A DNA stretch of 64,000 nucleotides from Loxodes magnus. Lineage: Eukaryota; Ciliophora; Karyorelictea; Loxodida; Loxodidae. Position numbers and translations under genes: made by a program. The notes beneath the pieces are model-generated. The model saw only the letters and a list, made by a program, of their open reading frames with translations, made no database searches and had not been told where the DNA came from. Shown here piece after piece: positions 4,069-58,240 of this stretch. Where the stretch lies: assembly GCA_946699065.1 (NCBI GenBank), contig CAMPDV010000014.1, forward strand, positions 1,302,001-1,366,000, written 5' to 3'. Within the stretch, counting starts at the first letter, position 1. Every line of letters begins with the position of its first letter.

Positions 4069-5277
4069 ATGGTTATAATGCATAGTAAAAAATAGAAAGA
4101 TATTATAAATAAGAATTTAAAAGAAAGGAAGGAAGGAAGTAAGAATCAAATGAGAAAGTTAATCTAAAAGTAAATTTAAAAATAAAAATATTTGAAAGAA
4201 TAAAAAGATTAATAAAATCTTATAGAAATACAAAAAAATTATGAGTGGTTTTAATTTTTTTCATATTGATTCACAATATTAGTTTTAAAAAGATGGACAA
4301 AACAAAAGAAAATAAAAAAATATAAATGAAATATTTTTTAAATAGAAAAAAGAAATAAACGATTATAAAATGTAAAATTCTTTTTTGTTCAGCACTTTTG
4401 CACTTTAGTAAAAAATGAGAATTACAATTTTTTATAAAATGCATGATATTCAATTTAAATATTAAACGAGATAATACATTCAATTCCTTTATATTATATA
4501 AATATTTAAATAAAATCAAACCAAAAATTTTGACATATATTGAAAAAATGAAATCGATTAGAAATACATTCAGTAGTTTTATAAGCATTCATATAAAAAA
4601 CGATTTAACTATTCATATTTAATCAATTTATAATAATTTTAAAAATTTTAAGATATACAATTTAATCTTTTTGATTAAAAATTAAATTCTTTCAATGCAA
4701 ATATTATATAAAAGAATATATTAATAACATATATAATAAGAGATAAAGATAATAAACAAAGATAAATATATATAATGATATTTGTACTTTAAATTTTATC
4801 ATATTAAAGGCTAAAGTTTAATTAATGTAAATTACAAGATTGGTATTTTACACACCTTTACAAAATTATACTAGATATAAAAAGTTTAAATGTTCGATTT
4901 GATTTAACTGCAATACTCTTTATCAAAATATATTTGATTTAATATTATTTTGCTAAAATATGAAAAAAGATCTTTATACAAAATAAAATAATTATAGAAA
5001 TTAATCAAAAGCAAGCTAAATATCTATTATTAACCCGAAATAAAACTAATTTGATATTTATTAAATGGAAAAGTAATTTAGCATATATCAATGGTATTTT
5101 CTTCACTTCTTTAAAGTTATTAAAATTTACCTTATATCGTAGATTTTAGTTATTTTTGACTAATTATTTAGATTATAAATCTTAATTTGATAATTTTAAC
5201 TAAGTTTTTCGAGAAATTCTTCAATGCCTTCTAGACATGTACTCTTGTATTTAATTTTTAAATCAATATTTGATCTT

Positions 5278-5582
5278 TAATTTTAAACTTAAAAAGTTTT
5301 GGACTGCAACTTTTTACAGTTTAATGATCCCAACACTCCCTTCATGGGATAACGGGGATATCCTGTTGCTTTCGAAAAGCAGCTACCAGGGAGCTCCATC
5401 GCTATGGGCAGCCAGGCTTCAAGCTCCTACCAGGAGTGGATAATCAAGAGGAAGGCGTTCCCTTGCAAAGGTTGACTTTGACCAGGGACTTTCTCAGCGA
5501 CAGGAAAGGAACTTTTTCCTAGCCATAAAACCAGAAAGTATGATTCAGAAGGTCAATCTCAGTTCCCACCATCTTTTTAATT
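5278..5582 (+). mobile_element. 305-bp SINE-like element, copy 1, with 16-bp target duplication
   Basis: A GC-richer unit flanked by perfect direct repeats ATCAATATTTGATCTT (5262-5277 and 5583-5598). The interior holds many short inverted repeats and is nearly identical to the unit at 18.8 kb. It also matches the inverted unit at 22.9 kb. No ORF is conserved among copies. Read on the minus strand it would end in a T run (AACTTTTT), as polymerase III transcripts do, but I see no clear A and B boxes. I cannot link it to a known RNA. Confidence 0.8.
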
Positions 5583-9370: not shown

Positions 9371-11434
9371 ATGTCATAGAGAGCATGTGATACATGTACT
9401 GAATAATTTGATCAAACCTAACATCTACCGAGATAAGTTGAATGTGGTTGCATTAGATGTGAAAATTGTTTGAGAATCATGTATAAAAACTTTAAATATT
9501 TCAAATGCCCTTTGCACAAAAAAAAAACATATACTGAGGTAGATTAGCTAAGGATAGTAAATGAGTATCTAAATCTTGAATTTCTAGATAAGTGTTAGCA
9601 AGTTTAAAAATGCTAATTACACTAAGAGGAGTTAAAGTACTACTGTTAAGAAGACTAAATCACTATTTGTGAATCATGTATCCAGCAAGAACATAAAAAT
9701 CATCTTATCTAATCACTCTTACAAAGGATATAAGAGTAAAATTTACATTTATAGTAAATTATATAAGAGATTAAGAAAAAGATAGATGAAAAGTTAGACT
9801 AAATAAAGATTAAATCAGAGATTTTGATCTAATAAAAGAATCAAATTTAAAAGCAGATAATTGAATAGACCAATAAACTACAGAAATAGATAAGATAAAC
9901 TAGTAAAATATTAATAAGGGAAACTCAAGATTAAATAGATCTAGTTAGTAGGGAGCTATTGGATACAAGTGAAAATCTCTAAAATAAGTTAAATATGATT
10001 CTTAATATCAAAATGGAAGAAATTTGTTTGGAAGATCAAAACCAATAAATCTTTGAGATGCAGTAATTATATTCCTCTATTGATTCACAAGAATATTAAG
10101 TTACATGTTCATCCACAAAATTAGAGAATATCATCCAATAAGACTAAGACTATGAGAATCGTTTCTGGAGCATTTTACTAAAACATAATCAGATAAAAGA
10201 ATACATCCAATTAAAAGACTAGAATTTACTTTTGAAAAATGAATTAGTATAATGCAATTAGTTTATACTAGATCTAAAGCTTCAGATTCAGACTTAGAGA
10301 GAATAATATTAGAGAGAGAAGTAAAAGCTATCTCAAGAATCATAAATATAAGAGTATTTTTACTAAAATAAGATAAAATTACTCTAATAATAAGTAAATC
10401 AATAATAATAAACAATCAAAATGAAATAAACAGAATATGAATAAGTTTAGTAGTAATATTAACTTATCATCTAAACTACTAAAATCAATCAAGTATAATA
10501 GCAACAGTCATAAATTAATGTTTAGCAAGTTACTAAATATTAAAGAATAAAATACAGTTCTAACATAAGATAAGAAGCTAAAATAGATTCTTCCAATGAA
10601 GTTGAAAGAATAATATAAGAATAGCAAGTGCCTAATCTAGTACCAGTTTACGAAGATAATACTTATTCATACTTAGTATCTGACAATCTGATAATATTAG
10701 CGGGAGGAAAGTCAGAAGAATCTCATATGAATGAGATAATAAGAATAGAGAATGACTAGCTTACAAATTTTAATATGAAATATCCTAAGAAGAGAACAGT
10801 AATGGCATATGACTAAGTAACGGCTAATATTTATATCATAGGAGGACTAGATCCTCAACATGATTATCCAAATAATCTTATCTATTCAAATAAATGTGAA
10901 TAATATAATATAAAAACAAATGCTTAGTAAATAATAGCAGAACATCCTCTATAGTTAGTTGATTAGGGAGTAAGTGTGATCAGTGATTAAGTGTTAACAA
11001 TGGGAGGATATATAATAGAATTAAAAGGTAAATACAATTATACAGATAATAAATCTTCGTGATAAGAAATAGACTAGATATGGTAATATAGTGTAGTCAA
11101 GAATGAATGAATAGAGCGGTCGGAGGTATTACCAAAATAAGCTGTAGTACTGGGAATGATTTACATTATATAAAGAGAGAGCATATTACTATTTGATAAT
11201 AAAAATAAACTAGGAAGAACTTATCAGTATGATGCTAAGTAATTTTGTGAAGATGGATAATAATTTCCATACAGTGGCGACAATTTTTGGTATAATCCAT
11301 GTGAGTGCAACTAAAGTATATGGATGTGGTAATCATGGTCACCCAAACATACTATTTTATGTTAATATGACTTGAGAGCGAAAGAGAGAGAATGGAAAAA
11401 TCATAAGCTATAGATAGAGAGTATAGGCAACTGA
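9371..11434 (+). CDS. TRIM-like RING / B-box / coiled-coil / kelch protein, copy 1
   Basis: Read with TAA/TAG = Gln this gives a protein of about 681 residues, with one 18-nt intron at 11028-11045. The N-terminus is a variant RING (CDTC, then CGCIRCENC, then CPLH). A type-2 B-box follows (CQLH, then C and C-ESC, then H-KN-H). Next come about 300 residues of Gln/Lys/Glu-rich coiled coil, then a C-terminal kelch region with repeats such as LIILAGG and IYIIGGLD. RING/B-box proteins of this plan are usually E3 ubiquitin ligases with kelch repeats as substrate binder; that role is inferred. In-frame TGA occurs at 11060 and 11108; the second aligns with Trp (TGG) in copies 2 and 3. The last TGA (11432-11434) is at the same place in all three copies. 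The start is the ATG shared by all copies just before the RING. Confidence 0.85.
11028..11045 (+). other. 18-nt spliceosomal intron in TRIM-like copy 1
   Basis: GTAAATACAATTATACAG. It begins GTA and ends TACAG, and aligns with 19-nt introns at the same place in copies 2 and 3. At 18 nt it keeps the frame here, so it is recognised only by comparison with the two paralogues, where removal is required. Confidence 0.75.
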
Positions 11435-14822: not shown

Positions 14823-17151
14823 TCAGTTATTTTGACTCTCTATCTGTAATTCAAGCTATTTCCACCCTTTCTATGTTGCTCTCATGTCATATTCACATAA
14901 AATGCTTTTTTAGTTTGCTGTTGCATCCCACATTCATATACTCTAGTTTTACTAGCATGGATTATACCAAAAAGGAGTTCCATTATATGGAAATGGTTAA
15001 CCATCATCACTAAATGACTTACCATCGTACTGATAAGTACTTAAAAAATTATTTAAATTGTCAAAGAGTAAAATACTATCTCTTTATGTATTGTAAATCA
15101 TTCCCAATGATTTAGTTTAAACTGGCAACATTTATGATTACTTTATCCACTAATTCTTAAAAATACTATATTGTCATATATCATTTATGAGTTATGGCGA
15201 AGATTTGTAATCTGCATTATTAATTACTACCTTTATGTAATATTATTCCACCTCCCATAGTTATTACTTGATCAAGCATCACACATGCTCCTTATAAAGC
15301 TATCTATAATGGATGTTCTGCTATTATTTACTAAGTGTTTGTTGTTATATTAAATTATTCACATTTATTTGAATAGAGTCGATTATATGCATTGTGTTTA
15401 GGATCATATCCTCCTATGATAAATATATTATCAGATACTTAGTCATATGCCATTACAGTTTCTTTCTTAGGATATTTCATATTGAACTTTGTTAGCTAAT
15501 CATTCTCTATTTTTGATATCTCATTCATATGAGATTCTTATGTCCATCCTCCCGCTAATATTATCAAATTATTCGACACTTAATATGAATATGTAGTATG
15601 ATTGTAAATTGGCGAAAGATCAGGTATCCCTTATTCTCTAAAAAATCTTTCTACTTTATTTAAAGAATCTATATTGACTTCTTATATTATGTTATAATTA
15701 AATTTTATTCTTTAGTATTTCTTTATCTTTTATGAAATTGGTTATGACTGTTATTATTACTATTGCATGACTTAAGTCGTTTAGATGTTGATGTTCTATT
15801 AAAATTAATATTAACCTTTCATTTTCTAAATCTATTCTTATAATTATGAAATTTCTTGTTACAGAAGTTATACAGAATGCTATAAATTATTATTTTATAA
15901 TCTTAAATCATTTGAGAATTATTATTAACTACTTAACTCAGATTTATATTGCTATTAAGAGTCTATAAGTTATTTTTCTTTATTGGCTATAGTTTCTTGA
16001 TGTTCTTATATCTGATTTTTAAGAAAATGCATCTACTGTTAATGCTCTTAATTGTTCTTTGATAAAACTTAGTTCTGCTCTTTTTATATTTATTATATAT
16101 ATTATTAATACTGTTTTACTTGATCTTAGATCATATTAATCTAATTTTGATAAGATTATTCTTAATTCAAGAGTTATTGAGATAATGTTTCTTTCGTTTT
16201 TTATTATTTACCTATGTTGTCCTCTAAAAAATGAAGTTAAAGTTGTAGATCTTGAATCTCCTACTTTTATTAGGCTATTTCAATCTTTTATTATTGGTAT
16301 TAATCTTTAGATTATTTGAATTCTCTTACTTGATTATTATTTGATAATATGCTTCAGATATTACTCTCATAATCTTAGTCTTATTATAGATGATTCTATA
16401 GGGTTTACGATGAAGATGATATTTAATACTCTTGAGAATCTATTGAAGAACTTAATTGCTACATATCAACAATTTATTAGCTTAAATCTTCTAAGATAGT
16501 TCCTCCTATTTAGGTTCTAAAGATTTAGCTTAACTTATTTTATAGATTATGCTTAAGTTCTATCAATTATCTATAATCAAGATCAATTTAGCCATGCTTT
16601 TCTGACCATAAACTTCTGGAAGCTTATCTTATATGATCTTATATCTTATTGCTATTTTATAAAATCTCCTTATAGACTTGATTCTTCTTCTATAGAAAAT
16701 TCTCTGATATTGTTTTGATTTATTTTAACATTTAATTAATCTTTAGTTAACTGGCTTGTACAATTTACTCTAAGTTTTAGCATTACTCTTAAATCCTTTA
16801 TTAGATAGGCTAGATCAGATGATTCTTGTGTGATTAATTGATACATTATTCACAAACTATGACTTTGTCTTCTTAACAGTAGAACTTTAACTCCTCTTAG
16901 TGCTAGGTGCAACTTTAAGCATTCACATTCCTTGAGATGAATATGGATTGTAGATACTCGTTTGCTATCCTTAGTTAATCTACCTCAGTATATGTTTTTT
17001 TTTTGTGCAAAGGGCATTTGAAATATTTAAAGTCTTTATACATGATTCTCAAACACTTTTCACATCTAATGCAACCACATTCAACTTATCGCGGTAGATG
17101 TTAGGTTTGATCAAATTATTCAGCACACGTTTCACATGCTCTCTATGACAT
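14823..17151 (-). CDS. TRIM-like RING / B-box / coiled-coil / kelch protein, copy 2
   Basis: This paralogue of the gene at 9.4 kb faces it from the opposite strand. The protein is about 769 residues once the 19-nt intron at 15212-15230 is removed: 2,329 nt minus 19 is 770 codons, with no other net frame change. The RING (CETC, CGCIRCEKC, CPLH) and B-box (CTQH ... CEQC ... H-KN-H) are intact. Two in-frame TGA codons in the kelch part fall where copy 1 has TGG Trp (the motifs I-W-Q-Y and S-I-W-M-W), so UGA is read as Trp. The gene ends at the TGA shared by all copies after a QIES-x-x-N motif. It was probably made by DNA duplication because the intron is kept. Ubiquitin-ligase function is inferred from the domains. 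Confidence 0.85.
15212..15230 (-). other. 19-nt spliceosomal intron in TRIM-like copy 2
   Basis: On the minus strand: GTAGTAATTAATAATGCAG. Without removing it, the kelch region runs out of frame. Removing it joins ...HK-G to AT-TAC..., which matches the other copies and continues to the shared terminal TGA. Confidence 0.85.
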
Positions 17152-18795: not shown

Positions 18796-19107
18796 TTAAT
18801 TTAATTTTAAACTTAAAGAGTTTTGGACTGCAACTTCTTGCAGTTTAACAACCCTAACACTCCCTTCATGGGATAACGGGGATATCCTGTTGCTTTCGAA
18901 AAGCAGCTGCCAGGAAGCTCCATCGCTATGGGTAGCCAGGTTTCAATCCCCTACCAGGAGTGGATAATCAAAAGGAAGGCGTTCCCTTGCAAAGGTTGAC
19001 TTTGACCAGGGACTTTCTCAGCGACAGGAAAGGAACTTGTTCCTAGCCATAAAATCAGAAAGTATGATTCAGAAGGTCAATCTCAGCTCCCACCATCTTT
19101 TTAATTA
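18796..19107 (+). mobile_element. 312-bp SINE-like element, copy 2, with 16-bp target duplication
   Basis: Same family as 5.3 kb. Direct repeats TTGGAATTAAATTAAA flank it (18780-18795 and 19108-19123). It is inserted just past zinc-knuckle copy B. Different flanking repeats from copy 1 show an independent insertion. Confidence 0.8.
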
Positions 19108-19699: not shown

Positions 19700-20685
19700 T
19701 CAACTTTCTTCTATCTATATTATTTTAGATTCAAAATCTCTGAGTGAAACTTATAAGATACAACGATCTCCTTACTGATTTTTAATTGCTTATAACCATA
19801 TTTAGCTATTATTGCCATATCCTTAAGATTCACTTTTCATAGGTATAGGAAGCTTTTTCTCACTTTATAGAAATTGTTATGATTTATCATCATAATAAAA
19901 TATTGTATCTTGATATTCATGCTAAGAATTTTTACCTCCTAAAATTATAAAATCTTTCTTCGACTTAAACGTTGAAATCAAAACTAAACCTTATGAAAGC
20001 TCACTTTAAAAAAAACTTCATGTCTGATTATCCTAATTTCATACTTCAATGCTTGATTAATACTTCTCTCTATTTCAACCTCCTACAACATATATTTTTT
20101 ATCCATCACTGCAGGCACTTACGCCTGATCTCTTACAATTTAAGTTCGGTATTTTTTCCCATTTTACAGGTTTTTCAATATTTATTCTTCAAACACTTCA
20201 CTTAGGATTCTGATTAAATCCTCCTATTAAATAAATTGAGTTTTGCAATACAGCTACAGCAACTATTATCTAAATTTGTTTAAAATAGGAAATTCGCTTT
20301 TAACTAAGTGAGCATACTTTTGTATAGAAAATTCATATAACTGTTTTTCTACATTCCATAAGTAAATTTTGTTTTTATTCTAAACTGATCTTGAAAATAA
20401 TTGACATTCAAAGTCAAGTTAGATGTTTTTAAATATTTTTCTATAAGGATAGTATAATTCTATCATATTATTTTCTATTCTATGGATGAAAAAGTCTTAG
20501 GAGAACGATGGAAATAATTCGAATTTTTACATTAGGATAGGAAGCTTTTAATAAGCTAGACAAATACTATTACCTAAACCTTTTCTTCCAAGTTTTCTTA
20601 AGTATAGTATCTAAACTAACGCTTATTACTTCGAAAGCTATAAATCATTTTTTAGGTCTAAATTTTTTGCTGGTTGGTCTTCCAT
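19700..20685 (-). pseudogene. Kelch-repeat protein, copy K1 broken by a 1-nt deletion
   Basis: The closest relative of K2 at nucleotide level. It is 986 nt between ATG (20685) and the homologous TGA (19700), one base short of a whole number of codons. The missing base lies where K2 reads AGA TAA TCA GTT and K1 reads AGATAATAGTT, just after the N-K-F-R motif (near 20274). Upstream and downstream halves otherwise read as good kelch sequence in two frames, including TGA Trp in GG-W-N, EV-W-N and QT-W-S. It is either a recent pseudogene or a sequencing indel. The ATG differs in context from K2 (starts MEDQPAKN). Confidence 0.75.
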
Positions 20686-20744
20686 TTTATAAAATTAAAT
20701 AATTAATTAAATAATTAATTAATTAATTAAAATAAAGATGATTA

Positions 20745-22888: not shown

Positions 22889-23213
22889 GAATATATAATT
22901 GAAAAGATGGTGCGAGCTGAGAATGACCTTCGTGACAAAACTTTCTGGTTTTATGGCTAGGAACAAGTTCCTTTCCTGTCACTGAGAAAATCCCTGGTCA
23001 GAGTCATTTTCTGAAGGGAACACTGTCTTTGAGATTATCCGCTCTTGGTAGGGGCTTGAAGCCTGGCTGCTATAGCGATGGAGCTCCCTAGCAGCTGTGC
23101 CTGGAGCACAACAGGATATCCCCGTTATTCCATAAAAAGAGAGCGTCGGGTTGTGCAATCGGAAAGGAGTTTCCGGTCCAAAAACTTTTTTAGTTTAAAT
23201 TAATTAATTAAAA
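22889..23213 (-). mobile_element. SINE-like element, copy 3, inverted and more diverged
   Basis: The reverse complement of the 5.3-kb unit, about 290 bp of core (22904-23199), with more substitutions and small indels. Short direct repeats CAAACAACT lie at 22880-22888 and 23214-23222, suggesting an older target duplication. Confidence 0.7.
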
Positions 23214-34594: not shown

Positions 34595-35599
34595 TCAACT
34601 TTCTTCTATCTCTATTATTTTAGATTCAAAATCTCTGAGTGAAACTTATAAGATACAATGTTAGTCTTTCGGCTTTTTTACTACAGAGAACCACATTCAA
34701 CAATTATCTCCATATCCTTAAGATTCACCTTTCATAGTTATAGGAAGTTTTTTCTCACTTTATATAAATTGTTATGATTTATCATCATAATAAAATATTA
34801 CATCTTGATATTCGTACTTAGAGTTTAGACCTCCTAAAATTATAAAATCTTTCTTCGATTTAAACGTTGAAATCATAACTAAACCATAGGGAAGCTCACT
34901 TTAAAAAAGACTTCATGTTTGATTATCCTAATTTCATACTTCAATGCTTGATTAATACTTCTCTTCGTTTCAACCTCCTACTACATATATTTTTTATCCA
35001 TCACTGCAAGCACTTACGCCTGATCTCTTACAATTTAAGTTCGGTATTTTTTCCCATTTTGCAGGGTTTTCAATATTTATTCTTCAAACGCTTCACTTAG
35101 GATTCTTATGATATCCTCCTATTAAATAAATTGAGTTTTGCAATACAGCTACAGCAACTGATTATCTAAATTTGTTTAAAATAGGAAAATCACTTTTAAC
35201 TAAGTGAGTATACTTTTGTATAGAAACTTCATATAACTGTTTTTCTACATTCCATAAGTAAATTTTGTTTTTATTCTAAACTGATCTTGAATATTGTTGG
35301 CATTCAAAGTCAAGTTAGATGTTTTTAAATATTTTTCTATAAGGATAGTATAATTCTATTCTATTTTTTTCTATTCTATGGATGAAAAAGTCTTAGCAGA
35401 ACGATGGAAATAATTCGAATTTTTACATTATGATAGGAAGCTTTTAATAAGCTAGACAAATACTATTACCTAAACCTTTTCTTCCAAGTTTTCTTAAGTA
35501 TAGTATCTAGACTAACGCTTATTACTTCGAAAGTTGTAAATCATCATTCAAGTCATAACAAATTATGGGTTGCTTTTTTCGTTTTATTTCTCCTTCCAT
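34595..35599 (-). CDS. Kelch-repeat protein, intact copy (K2)
   Basis: An uninterrupted frame of 335 codons (334 residues) from ATG at 35599 to TGA at 34595. Kelch signatures are clear: IYLIGGYHKNPKWSVWRINI and IYVVGGWNEEKYQSSIEVWN, followed by DNQTW. Six internal TGA codons fall at kelch Trp positions (K-W-S, V-W-R, GG-W-N, EV-W-N, QT-W-S, NC-W-M), while three other Trp use TGG. The final TGA follows EIEES in all three copies; beyond it the copies differ by indels, so there TGA acts as stop. Gln is mostly TAA/TAG, with CAA/TAA swaps between copies. No intron is needed. Kelch blades usually bind proteins; the partner is unknown and no second domain is visible. Confidence 0.85.
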
Positions 35600-43512: not shown

Positions 43513-44718
43513 CTACTCTCTAGTAAAAAGAATATCGAAGAGACCATTTTTATTTTTCACTTCTAGTTATTTAAGGTAATTCAAATCTACCTTTTCGAAA
43601 TCGTAAATTGTGAAGTTCTAATATCCTCAATATTTTAGTAGTTACTAGCACGAGTAATGCTAAAATACTCTCTAATCGTCTAGTTTTCAAAAGTGAAAAC
43701 CTTCTTTTATTAGTCACTGCATTTATTCCTCTACCCACGACTCTCCTAATAATTTGAAAATATTGATAAATCATTCCATTATTATTACTATATCCTTTGA
43801 TCTTCTAATGATCTCATGAGCTCCTTGTATTCCCGCTAGATCTGCAGCTTCGATGTCAAACTTCATCAAATGAACCTCAGGAAGAACTTCAGGTGGAAAA
43901 AGTTCGTCCAAGCTTACAGCTAAAATATTAAACTACTTTGACTTTTCGGATTCTTTTATCTTACTTCTAATTTCCTTTTTTTTTGCAAATCCTTTACTTT
44001 TTTACTCCTTTACTATGTCTTCAACTTTACTAGAGTAACTTTTAGGTGCGAAATTAAATATCATATCCTAAGTTCTGTTGTATACTGCGTAGTTATATAT
44101 TTAAACCCTTTTCTATAAGTCATTAATAATTAGGGAAGTGTTTACGTATTATAAATTTACAGCATTAGCGTCTATTGTAAACTATTGACCTCCTTTATTC
44201 TCATCAAGTAGAGAAGCCATTTTAATGGTATGAAATCCGAAATAGGCGCCACATTCTATTATTTTCGAATATGGTTGAATAATTCCAATCAGAGCTAATA
44301 GAGTAGATGGTTCATAAACACAAGTCTTATATTTTCTAACACTATTGTAAATACCCAGCTCAGCTTTTGAATATGTTAAATGAAGGGTTTTGCTTCTAAA
44401 CTGTATTGGCAGCTTCCTTGCAACAAACGTTTCTTTAGTATAGTTACCTTTTTAAATAGTTGTTCCAAGTCACCATGCTACTTCATATACCTTTTCTAAT
44501 TGTTCTGGGTATTAAATGTTTTGTATTTTTACTTAGTAGTTCTTAGATAGAATAAAATCTCTCTTACTCAAACTTAAAGCTGGCTAAGGCTATGTTTTGT
44601 TAATAATTTATATAATAGGTATAAATTCTTATTACTTCTTCTTTCATAAGGAAATTAAGCTGCTTAGTAGTATTAAAGTTCATAGAACTAAAAAAAAAAT
44701 CATATAACTAGCTCTCAT
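43513..44718 (-). CDS. FkbM-family SAM-dependent methyltransferase, membrane-anchored
   Basis: A single-frame protein of about 401 residues. Residues 7-25 form a hydrophobic signal anchor (FFLVLWTLILLSSLISLW) followed by KKK, so it is probably a type II membrane protein. The SAM-binding region reads IIECGAYFGFHTIKMASLLD, then TIDANAVNLQYVNTSLIIND. Later motifs are LMKFDIEAADLAGIQGAHEI and DIVIIMEW, typical of the FkbM fold (O-methylation of sugars or lipids in relatives; substrate unknown). Seven Trp codons are TGA (residues 13 and 25, in A-W-W, ME-W-F, MQ-W-L, HF-W-K and Y-W-G) and two are TGG. Homology ends with GLFDILFTRE followed by TAG at 43513; the first in-frame TGA after that is at 43243, which would add 90 AT-rich residues. 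The true end is therefore uncertain. Confidence 0.8.
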
Positions 44719-49156: not shown

Positions 49157-50161
49157 TCAACTTTCTTCTTTCTCAATTATTTTAGATTTTAAATCTCTGA
49201 GTGATACTTATAAGACACAAACCTTGTTTTGCTGCTCTTTTACTACATAGAACCATATTCAGCCATTATCAACACAACCTTAAGATTCGCCTTTCATAGA
49301 TATAGGAAGTTTTTTCTCACTTTATATAAATTGTTATGTCTTATTATCATAATAAATTATTATATCTTGATATTTGTACTTAGAGTTTAAACCACCTAAA
49401 ATTATAAAATTTTTCTTCGATTTATATGTTGAAGTCAATACTAAACCATAGGGCAATTCACTTTAAAAAAGACTTCATGTTTGATTATCCTAATCTCATA
49501 CTTCAATGTTTGGTTGATACTTCTCATTGTTTCAACCTCCTACAACATATATTTTTTATCCATCACTGCAGGCACTTACTCCTGATCTCTTACAACTTAA
49601 GTTAGGTAGTTTTTCCCATTTTTCAGGATTTTTAATATTTAATCTTTGAACGTTTCGCTTAGGATTGTTGTGATATCCTCCTATTAAATAAAAATAGTTT
49701 TAAAGAACTACAGCAGCTGCTGATTGTCTAAATTTGTTTAAAATAGGGAAATCACTTTTAACTTAGTGAGTTTACTTTTAAATAGAAACCTCATATAACT
49801 ATTTTCATACATTCCATATGTAAATTTTGTTTTTATCCTAAACTGATCTTGAATATTCTAGAATTGCAAAATTAAGTGAGATGCTTCTAAAACTATTTCT
49901 ATAAGGATAGTATAACTCTACACTTTTTTTTTCTAGTTTATGAATGAAAAAGTCGTAGCAGAACGATGGAAATAATTCGAATTTTTGCATTAAGATAGGA
50001 AGCCTTTAATAAAATTGGCAAGTACTATTACCTAAACCTTTTCTTCCAAGTTTTCTTAAGAATAATATTTAAACTAATGTGACTTACTTCGAAAACTAGA
50101 TATCATTTTTCAGATTTAATTATTTTTCTGGTTACACATTTCGTTATAATTCTCCTCCCAT
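49157..50161 (-). CDS. Kelch-repeat protein, intact copy (K3)
   Basis: A paralogue of K2 with the same length (335 codons) and no frame break, starting MGGELQRN and ending KEES-TGA. It keeps the TGA Trp codons in GG-W-N, EV-W-D and QT-W-S. The two TGA in the N-P-K-W-S-V-W motif have become CGA (Arg) and CAA (Gln). At a Gln where K2 has TAA (N-K-F-R-Q-S) it has CAA, a silent change that directly supports TAA = Gln. Same-length coding in a clearly diverged copy argues for function. The gene stands alone between AT-rich spacers. Confidence 0.85.
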
Positions 50162-55890: not shown

Positions 55891-58240
55891 TCAGTTGCCT
55901 AACCTCTCTATTTGTAACTTATGTTCTTTCCATTCTCTTTCTTTCGTTCTCATGTTATATTAATATAGAATGTTATGCTAAAGTGAATGTGCATTAGTTG
56001 CCTCCCACATTCATATACTCTAATTGCACTCTCATGGATTATACCAAAAGAATTATTAGTCATTGAATGGGAATTATGAACCATCCTCACTAAATTACTT
56101 ACCATCATACTGATAAGTTCTCTTTAAATTATTTTAATTGTCAAATAGTAATATACTTTCTCTATATGCATTAAATATCATTCCCAATGATTTAGCTGCC
56201 TCTGGTAATACTTTTGATTACCTTATCCACTCATTTTTTACTACACTATATTATCATACCTAGTTTATTTCTTCAAATAAAGATTCATTTTCTGTATTAT
56301 TAACTATTACCTCTAAGTTCTATGATATACCCTCCCATTGTTATCACTTGTTCATTCGTCGCACATAACCCCTAATTAGCTAATTATAAGGGATGGTCTG
56401 CTATTATTTATTAATCGTTTGTTTTTATATTATAATATTCACATTTATTTGAAAAAAGAGAAATATTAGGATAAGCATGTTGAGGATCTATACCTCCAAT
56501 AATATACATATTAAACGATACTTAATCATATGCCATTGTCGTTTCTCTTTTAGGATATTTCATATTTAACTTAGTTATCTAGTCATTCTCTATTTTTATT
56601 ATCTCATTCATATGAGATTCTTATGTTCATCCTCCAGCTAATATTAATATATTTTCGGATACTTAATATGAATAAGTATTATTACTGCGTACTGGTAGAA
56701 GATCAAGTATATATTACTTCTTGGTTATTCTTCTAGCTTGATTGGAAGAATCTATAACTATTTTTTGTATAATGTTAGAATTACGCATTATTCTTTAATA
56801 CTTGGTTATGCACTAAGATCCATCTAATAACTGCTACTATTATTATTCTTATTTAACTTGAGTTGCTTAGCCAAATACATGCTATTACTATTACTATTAA
56901 GCTATCATCTCCTAAATATACTTTTGTAAGCTTAAATTCTCTTACTACAAAAGTTATATTTAATTATATTAGTTATTATTTTCTATGAATAAATCCTTTG
57001 GTTTTTATTTTTAATTACTCGTCTCAGATTCATAAAACTTTTGAAATGCTTTAAGTTATTTTTCATAATTTTCTGCAATTGCTTTTTATTTCTATATCTG
57101 AATAGTTAGGAATTGTGCTTATTTTGAATATTCCGCATTTTTCTATGCTAAAATTTAGTCATGCTCTATTTATGCTCTTTAGATAGTCTAATTTTATTTA
57201 TCTACTTAATCTTATAAGTTACTTATTTAAGTTTAAAGAGATTAAATTTAGCCTAATAATTATTGATTTGACAATTCTTTCTCTCCTTATTATTTATTAT
57301 ATTAGTCTTCCTAAGTTTTAAGCTTAAGCTTTAAGTTTTGCATTTGTTGCTTTTACTATGGTATTGCTTTCTTCTAAATTTAAGCATATTCTTTCAACTT
57401 GCTATATTTTTTTACCTAATTTTAATCCAATAAAGCACTTCAGAATTGATTCTCGTAATCTAAATTTTGTTGGAAATTATTTATTAAAGACTATGATGAT
57501 GAAAGCAAATTTTAATAATCTTGAGAATCTATTGAGAAACTTAATTGCTATAAATAAGTGATTTATTAATCACATTCTTATAAAGAGTCTTTTTCCATTT
57601 TGATACTAAGAATCTAGTTTAATTTATTCTAGAGATTCGCATTCACTTCTATCATTTGTTTAATTATAGGACTCATTTATTCTTGGGTTTTTTATATCAA
57701 TATTTTTCTGGCTTGCTTTATTTAATTTTATACCTTATCGTTTATTAGTATAATCTCCTTATAGATTTGATTTTTTTACTAGAGCATTCTCTTTGATATA
57801 ATCGTTAGTTAGTCTTATTTTTAGTTTATCTTTTGAATTATTTCCTATTTTATTTGCTTTTAAAGCTTATTTTACTCTTAGATTCTTTGCTAGATAGATT
57901 AGATATGATGATTCTTATGATACATATTAAAGCATTCTTTGCATACCTATACTTTATCATCTTAGCAATATTAATCTAACTCTTCTTAGTGTTATATGCA
58001 TCTTTAAATTGTCTATTCTTTAGAGGTGGATATAGATTGTAGATATTCGTGGACTATCCTTAGCTAGTTTATCTGTGTTTATGTTTTATGGTTATGAAAC
58101 TGGCATTTGAAATGATTTTAGCTTCTGTACCTGATTTTCAAACACTTTTCACATCTTACACAACCACATTCAACTTATCTCGGTAAATGCTTGACTTAAT
58201 CGAATTCTTTATTACAAGTTTCACAAACCCTCTAGGACAT
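55891..58240 (-). CDS. TRIM-like RING / B-box / coiled-coil / kelch protein, copy 3
   Basis: This is the third and most diverged paralogue, about 776 residues after removing a 19-nt intron at 56292-56310 (2,350 minus 19 is 777 codons). The RING reads CETC ... CGCVRCEKC ... CQFH, and the B-box CIQH ... CQDD ... CKEC ... H-KN-H. The coiled coil is Gln-rich, mostly encoded by TAA/TAG. TGA appears in frame at the same two kelch Trp positions as in copy 2, and once at a position that is Cys in copies 1 and 2. All three genes end at the homologous TGA. An intact frame over 2.3 kb despite clear divergence suggests selection on the protein. Confidence 0.83.
56292..56310 (-). other. 19-nt spliceosomal intron in TRIM-like copy 3
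   Basis: On the minus strand: GTAATAGTTAATAATACAG. Same position and phase (after the first base of a codon) as the introns of copies 1 and 2; removal restores the frame. Confidence 0.85.

Follow-up and report, generated by a model that had tools for sequence, protein, structure and literature searches.

UGA as tryptophan and as stop in kelch genes of the ciliate Loxodes magnus, and the genomic organisation of its tRNA-Trp(CCA) genes

Genes and repeats in the window

The DNA analysed in this study, referred to as the window, is a stretch of 64,000 nucleotides from Loxodes magnus (assembly GCA_946699065.1, contig CAMPDV010000014.1, positions 1,302,001 to 1,366,000). It contains three copies of a kelch gene (kA, kB, and kC) and three copies of a B-box/kelch gene (tA, tB, and tC), which are listed in Table 1. 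On the minus strand, the frame of kB runs from an ATG at 35597-35599 to a TGA at 34595-34597, and its translation passes through six internal TGA codons before the terminal one. The initial annotation had described a kelch frame with six internal TGAs here, and both the count and the start and end coordinates were exact. When TGA is read as Trp, Kelch_1 (PF01344) scores 74, 73.8, and 69.3 bits in kA, kB, and kC, respectively, against a curated cut-off of 20.1; the score of kA was obtained in the reading frame of the part beyond a one-base deletion. Because this deletion, which may also be an assembly error at that site, shifts the frame of kA, two of the three kelch copies are intact.

The window also contains an FkbM-like methyltransferase gene (PF05050, 3.1e-8) with an in-frame TGA (VIIME*FIN, where the asterisk marks the TGA, as it does below) and more TGAs downstream; a homolog search with this gene gave none. 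Nine further long open frames in the window had no Pfam match at E 0.01. ARAGORN found no tRNA in the 64 kb, and Rfam gave no match at the gathering score. An interspersed repeat with a GC-rich part occurs in several copies, one of which is inverted among the three located in Table 1.

Table 1 Features of the window. Strand is given relative to the contig; column counts refer to the alignment of 28 kelch loci.
Feature	Position	Strand	Observations
Kelch gene kB	34595..35599	-	Translation; Pfam Kelch_1 7.5e-21 (TGA as Trp); dN/dS 0.43 against kC
Internal TGA PK*S	35093-35095	-	kC has Arg (CGA); column 185: Lys 10, Arg 7; not a Trp column
Internal TGA V*R	35084-35086	-	kC has Gln (CAA); column 195: Gln 13, Phe 6, Tyr 4; not a Trp column
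Internal TGA VVGG*N	34970-34972	-	Common to kA, kB, and kC; aromatic column 233: TGA 9, Tyr 15, Arg 2, Asn 1, Glu 1
Internal TGA IEV*N	34934-34936	-	Common to kA, kB, and kC; aromatic column 247: TGA 7, Tyr 17, TGG 1, Phe 1, gap 2
Internal TGA NQT*S	34913-34915	-	Common to kA, kB, and kC; Trp column 254: TGA 21, TGG 3, Gln 1, gap 3
Internal TGA NC*MW	34697-34699	-	TAA (Gln) in kA, TGA in kC; column 330: TGA 2, Tyr 2, His 1, gap 23
Terminal TGA after EES, probably used as stop	34595..34597	-	Common position in kA, kB, and kC; faster kB/kC divergence and GC drop beyond
Kelch copy kA	about 19700..20704 (upper end approximate)	-	One-base deletion and frameshift
Kelch copy kC	49157..50161	-	Intact; same terminal TGA as kB
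B-box/kelch copy tA	9371..11062	+	TGG at 10166-10168, opposite TGA in tB and tC; terminal TGA 11060-11062
B-box/kelch copy tB	15181..17151	-	Internal TGA 16354-16356; ends in TGA 15181-15183
B-box/kelch copy tC	56285..58240	-	Internal TGAs 57440-57442 and 56627-56629; terminal TGA 56285-56287
FkbM-like methyltransferase gene	43774-44508	-	In-frame TGA
Interspersed repeat	5276-5575		GC-rich part
Interspersed repeat	18800-19099		GC-rich part
Interspersed repeat	22895-23141		Inverted copy

Internal TGA codons of the kelch copies

A codon alignment of the three copies showed that VVGG*N, IEV*N, and NQT*S are common to all of them. PK*S and V*R are present in kA and kB with other codons in kC, NC*MW is present in kB and kC with a TAA in kA, and kC has a private TGA at a position where kA and kB have Glu. 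The earlier description of the copies as sharing most of these codons therefore holds for three of the six TGAs of kB, and the remaining three differ in kA or kC.

Relatives from the same genome were aligned to determine which residues stand opposite these codons. A search yielded 120 matches, from which 30 loci were taken and 28 were used, the two pieces of kA being left out; the 28 loci, some of them close paralogs, are not independent of each other. All six TGAs had been placed at kelch tryptophan positions. This assignment stands for NQT*S, where TGA and TGG account for 21 and three loci, respectively; VVGG*N and IEV*N lie in columns that are aromatic only, and the other three TGAs, half of those in kB, are outside Trp columns. 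The occurrence of TGA against Tyr at the aromatic sites VVGG*N and IEV*N fits Trp. Column 205, in which kB itself has TGG, is a second Trp column (TGA 17, TGG 9, other 2 among the 28 loci), and a third consists of TGA 10, TGG 5, Tyr 7, and other 6.

The dN/dS ratio between kB and kC is 0.43 in the coding frame versus 0.58-0.88 in the five other frames, and it is 0.37 before and 0.43 after the first TGA of kB. A ratio of 0.43 is only moderately low, and selection on this pair is moderate rather than strong. Given the three non-Trp TGAs in kB and the frameshift in kA, parts of the local kelch array may be decaying.

TGA in kinase domains and in the B-box family

The protein kinases, an unrelated family in the same genome, were aligned with TAA, TAG, and TGA masked, using the best 50 of 136 listed domains (coding GC 32.6%). 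Among the 37 TGAs in these 50 domains, 28 fall in three columns in which the majority of sense codons is TGG (P about 8e-52, uncorrected for relatedness), with TGG/TGA counts of 32/13, 13/9, and 22/6. These columns make up 112 of the 12,755 codons, and ten other codons taken for comparison are found there in one of 2,229 occurrences (a single TAA). The nine TGAs outside the Trp columns comprise one in a Leu-majority column and one in an Ile-majority column, with the rest in mixed columns. The initial annotation had suggested examining whether TGA aligns with Trp columns in conserved genes or at random residues; in the best 50 of 136 kinase domains, 28 of the 37 TGAs align with TGG-majority columns.

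The share of UGA among Trp-type codons in the best 50 of 136 kinase domains is 37/128 (0.29), compared with 0.73 A-ending codons among AAR, GAR, and CAR. In the kelch family it is 136/179 (0.76) versus an A-ending share of 0.75; not all of the 136 are in Trp columns, and the two clear columns give 38/50. The choice of kinase domains by score works against TGA-rich ones, since 120 TGAs were counted by hand in the 86 domains ranked lower (1.40 per domain), versus 37 in the best 50 (0.74 per domain). We therefore do not rely on an avoidance of UGA in kinases.

In the B-box/kelch family, the codon alignment of tA, tB, and tC contains one conserved column with TGG, TGA, and TGA, and another with AAG, TGG, and TGA. 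Together with the kinase columns and kelch columns 254 and 205, this family supports the reading of internal UGA as Trp, as judged from aligned codons.

UAA and UAG as glutamine

In three sequence pairs of the B-box family, TAA is aligned with CAA more often than with any other non-TAR partner (33 column-pairs), the next being Leu (20), Lys (18), and Glu (16). Between kB and kC, TAA/CAA or TAG/CAG alternation occurs in six Gln columns, and not in only one, as the initial annotation had counted. These substitution patterns support Gln as the meaning of both UAA and UAG.

TGA at gene ends

The alignment bears out that all three kelch copies have a TGA directly after EES. Before this codon, kB and kC differ at 118/903 sites and have no indels; over the next 100 nt they differ at 27/100 sites and have one 1-base indel (Fisher P 0.0005 versus the region before). 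For kA and kB, the corresponding values are 64/902 and 11/99 (P 0.16, not significant), with a 1-base indel before the terminal TGA and two, 1 and 6 bases long, beyond it. The copies had been said to drift with indels past this point, which is true of kB and kC; for kA and kB the indels are present, but the rise in divergence is not significant. The GC content, 27.7% in kB, drops to 15% over the 60 nt past its terminal TGA.

More distant members of the kelch family do not share the EES-TGA end, and the evidence for the stop therefore comes from one local gene group. All six gene ends read are TGA (the three kelch and three B-box copies only, at the DNA level), and the last sense TGA in kB, the one gene considered in this respect, lies 33 codons upstream of the stop. 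The common EES-TGA, the faster divergence of kB and kC beyond it, and the drop in GC support a second role of UGA in termination, as far as the DNA of this local gene group indicates.

tRNA-Trp genes and eRF1

The genome assembly analysed comprises 705,730,643 bases in 7,843 contigs. ARAGORN and a covariance model identified a tRNA-Trp(CCA) whose anticodon stem has four base pairs and is topped by a U27-C43 mismatch. Four genes of this type were read and are identical across the tRNA. An exact genome search with its 28-nt core gave 72 copies, all of which are on contig C148, and a control with the reversed pattern gave 0 matches. Sixty-six of the copies are arranged head to tail at 157,303-173,043 in steps of 241-242 bp, with one step of 285, and six more are located within 155-210 kb of the same contig. 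Three tRNA-Trp(CCA) genes read on contig C110 (L095, L096, and L098) have a 5-bp stem, and in a further one, on contig C7736 (L097), the stem is broken. The tRNA genes on C110 (L095, L096, L098, and L099) have a similar body with differing anticodon arms, namely Trp(CCA) with a 5-bp stem, Met(CAT), and Arg(CCT).

As a control, the core of tRNA-Pro(UGG) was found in 128 exact copies that are dispersed, with 25 contigs represented among the matches listed. Compared with this control, the copy number of the tRNA-Trp array is not exceptional. A high tRNA copy number is usual in this genome, and it is the single tandem array that differs from this one control.

Two near-identical eRF1 genes are present (L090 and L091, contig C196). 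A third PF03463 match, L089, is presumably Pelota and was left out of the comparison. Relative to the solved chain 5a8l, the L090 protein keeps the NIKS motif and has Arg at Thr58, Gln at Ser60, Ala at Ser70, and Phe at Tyr125; for Thr58, Ser60, and Tyr125, we take the numbering to be that of the human protein. The translation of L091 also has Ala at the Ser70 position. The change associated with readthrough in Blastocrithidia, Ser70Gly in the eRF1 numbering of that report (PMC12153298), is absent from L090 and L091.

Discussion

According to the published account of its code, L. magnus uses NCBI table 27, in which UAA and UAG are sense codons and UGA is either Trp or stop (PMC11441545). UGA is described there as the sole stop codon, which is also read as Trp if the poly(A) tail is sufficiently distant; transcripts with poly(A) tails end only in UGA, and sense UGA is depleted over about 20 codons before the stop (PMC11441545). 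The macronuclear assembly of that study has 706 Mbp and a coding GC of 33.5% (PMC11441545). The initial annotation had proposed, from the letters of the window, that UGA is both Trp and stop with UAA and UAG as Gln, and this is supported by the kinase, B-box, and kelch columns, the CAA partners, and the shared EES-TGA. It named karyorelicts and Condylostoma as the known bearers of such codes, and the karyorelict code, published for Loxodes magnus itself (PMC11441545), is the one that fits. The dual use of UGA is real and was correctly read, and it has already been published in kind and in this organism.

We conclude, with a probability of about 95%, that the Loxodes magnus kelch gene follows the published ambiguous code, with UAA and UAG as Gln, internal UGA as Trp, and the last UGA near the mRNA end as stop, the most likely mechanism being one based on the tRNA-Trp(CCA) with the 4-bp stem. 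Internal UGAs would be read by this near-cognate tRNA, whose anticodon stem has four pairs only, as the literature on such tRNAs suggests. It would compete with eRF1 at internal UGAs, and termination would prevail close to the poly(A) tail; for this last step we likewise draw on the literature, in which the nearness of poly(A)-binding protein has been proposed to decide stopping (PMC4967479). Because 5-bp-stem tRNA-Trp(CCA) genes also exist on C110, we infer rather than observe which tRNA reads UGA.

Three other explanations were weighed. The kelch copies might be pseudogenes whose TGAs are nonsense mutations in a genome that uses TGA as stop only, and the frameshift of kA, the alignment of three kB TGAs with codons for Arg or Gln in another copy, and that of the private TGA of kC with Glu are in line with such decay. 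Against it, TGA and TGG interchange in the same way in the B-box family and in 50 kinase domains elsewhere in the genome, selection is alike on either side of the first TGA of kB, and dN/dS is lower in the coding frame than in any of the five others; given the kinase columns and the selection across the TGAs, we reject a pseudogene origin as very improbable. We assign a similarly small chance to the possibility that UGA is Trp only and that the protein continues past EES to a later signal. Table 27 has no stop-only codon, so that the frame remains open past EES, and kA and kB remain alike over some 100 nt past the TGA (11/99 differences), but kB and kC diverge faster there, with a frame-changing indel, and the GC content of kB drops to 15%.

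The least probable of the three is a code like that of Condylostoma, in which UAA and UAG would also act as stops at transcript ends. In that code, all three codons are used within genes in the same way (PMC4967479), and the ends of the kelch and B-box copies speak against it, since those read, six gene ends only, are TGA. As far as the code of Condylostoma magnum is set out in PMC4967479, it agrees with our observations in that all three stop codons are sense within genes and UGA is Trp or stop, and it differs in that UAA and UAG are also stops, which was not seen at the six gene ends read here.

The published ambiguous code of L. magnus (table 27) agrees with ours in UAR as Gln, internal UGA as Trp, and terminal UGA as stop, and nothing in what PMC11441545 states about the code contradicts it. 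Beyond the code given there, the present analysis adds examples at the level of genes and the organisation of the tRNA-Trp copies. Blastocrithidia, as characterised in PMC12153298, similarly reads UGA as Trp with a tRNA-Trp(CCA) that has a 4-bp stem and has an eRF1 altered at Ser70. It differs in that UAA is the only stop, UAR is Glu, and Ser70 is replaced by Gly (PMC12153298), whereas Loxodes magnus has Ala.

The organisation of the putative UGA-reading tRNA genes is the only part of this work that is possibly novel. As a tentative and rather doubtful extension, the UGA reader in Loxodes could be a homogenised array on a single contig (66 head-to-tail and six nearby 4-bp-stem tRNA-Trp(CCA) genes) beside a small set with 5-bp stems, and the size of this array together with the Ser70Ala change in eRF1 might set the ratio of Trp to stop. 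Kelch-like families would then drift freely to UGA, with a share of 0.76 among Trp codons that equals the third-base preference for A over G, and conserved genes would avoid UGA.

The data presented here, obtained from raw sequence, support a nuclear code that is one of few to give a single codon both a sense and a stop meaning; genes of this kind would be cut by standard gene finders. The locus with 72 copies of the 4-bp-stem tRNA-Trp offers a defined site for studying what makes readthrough efficient.
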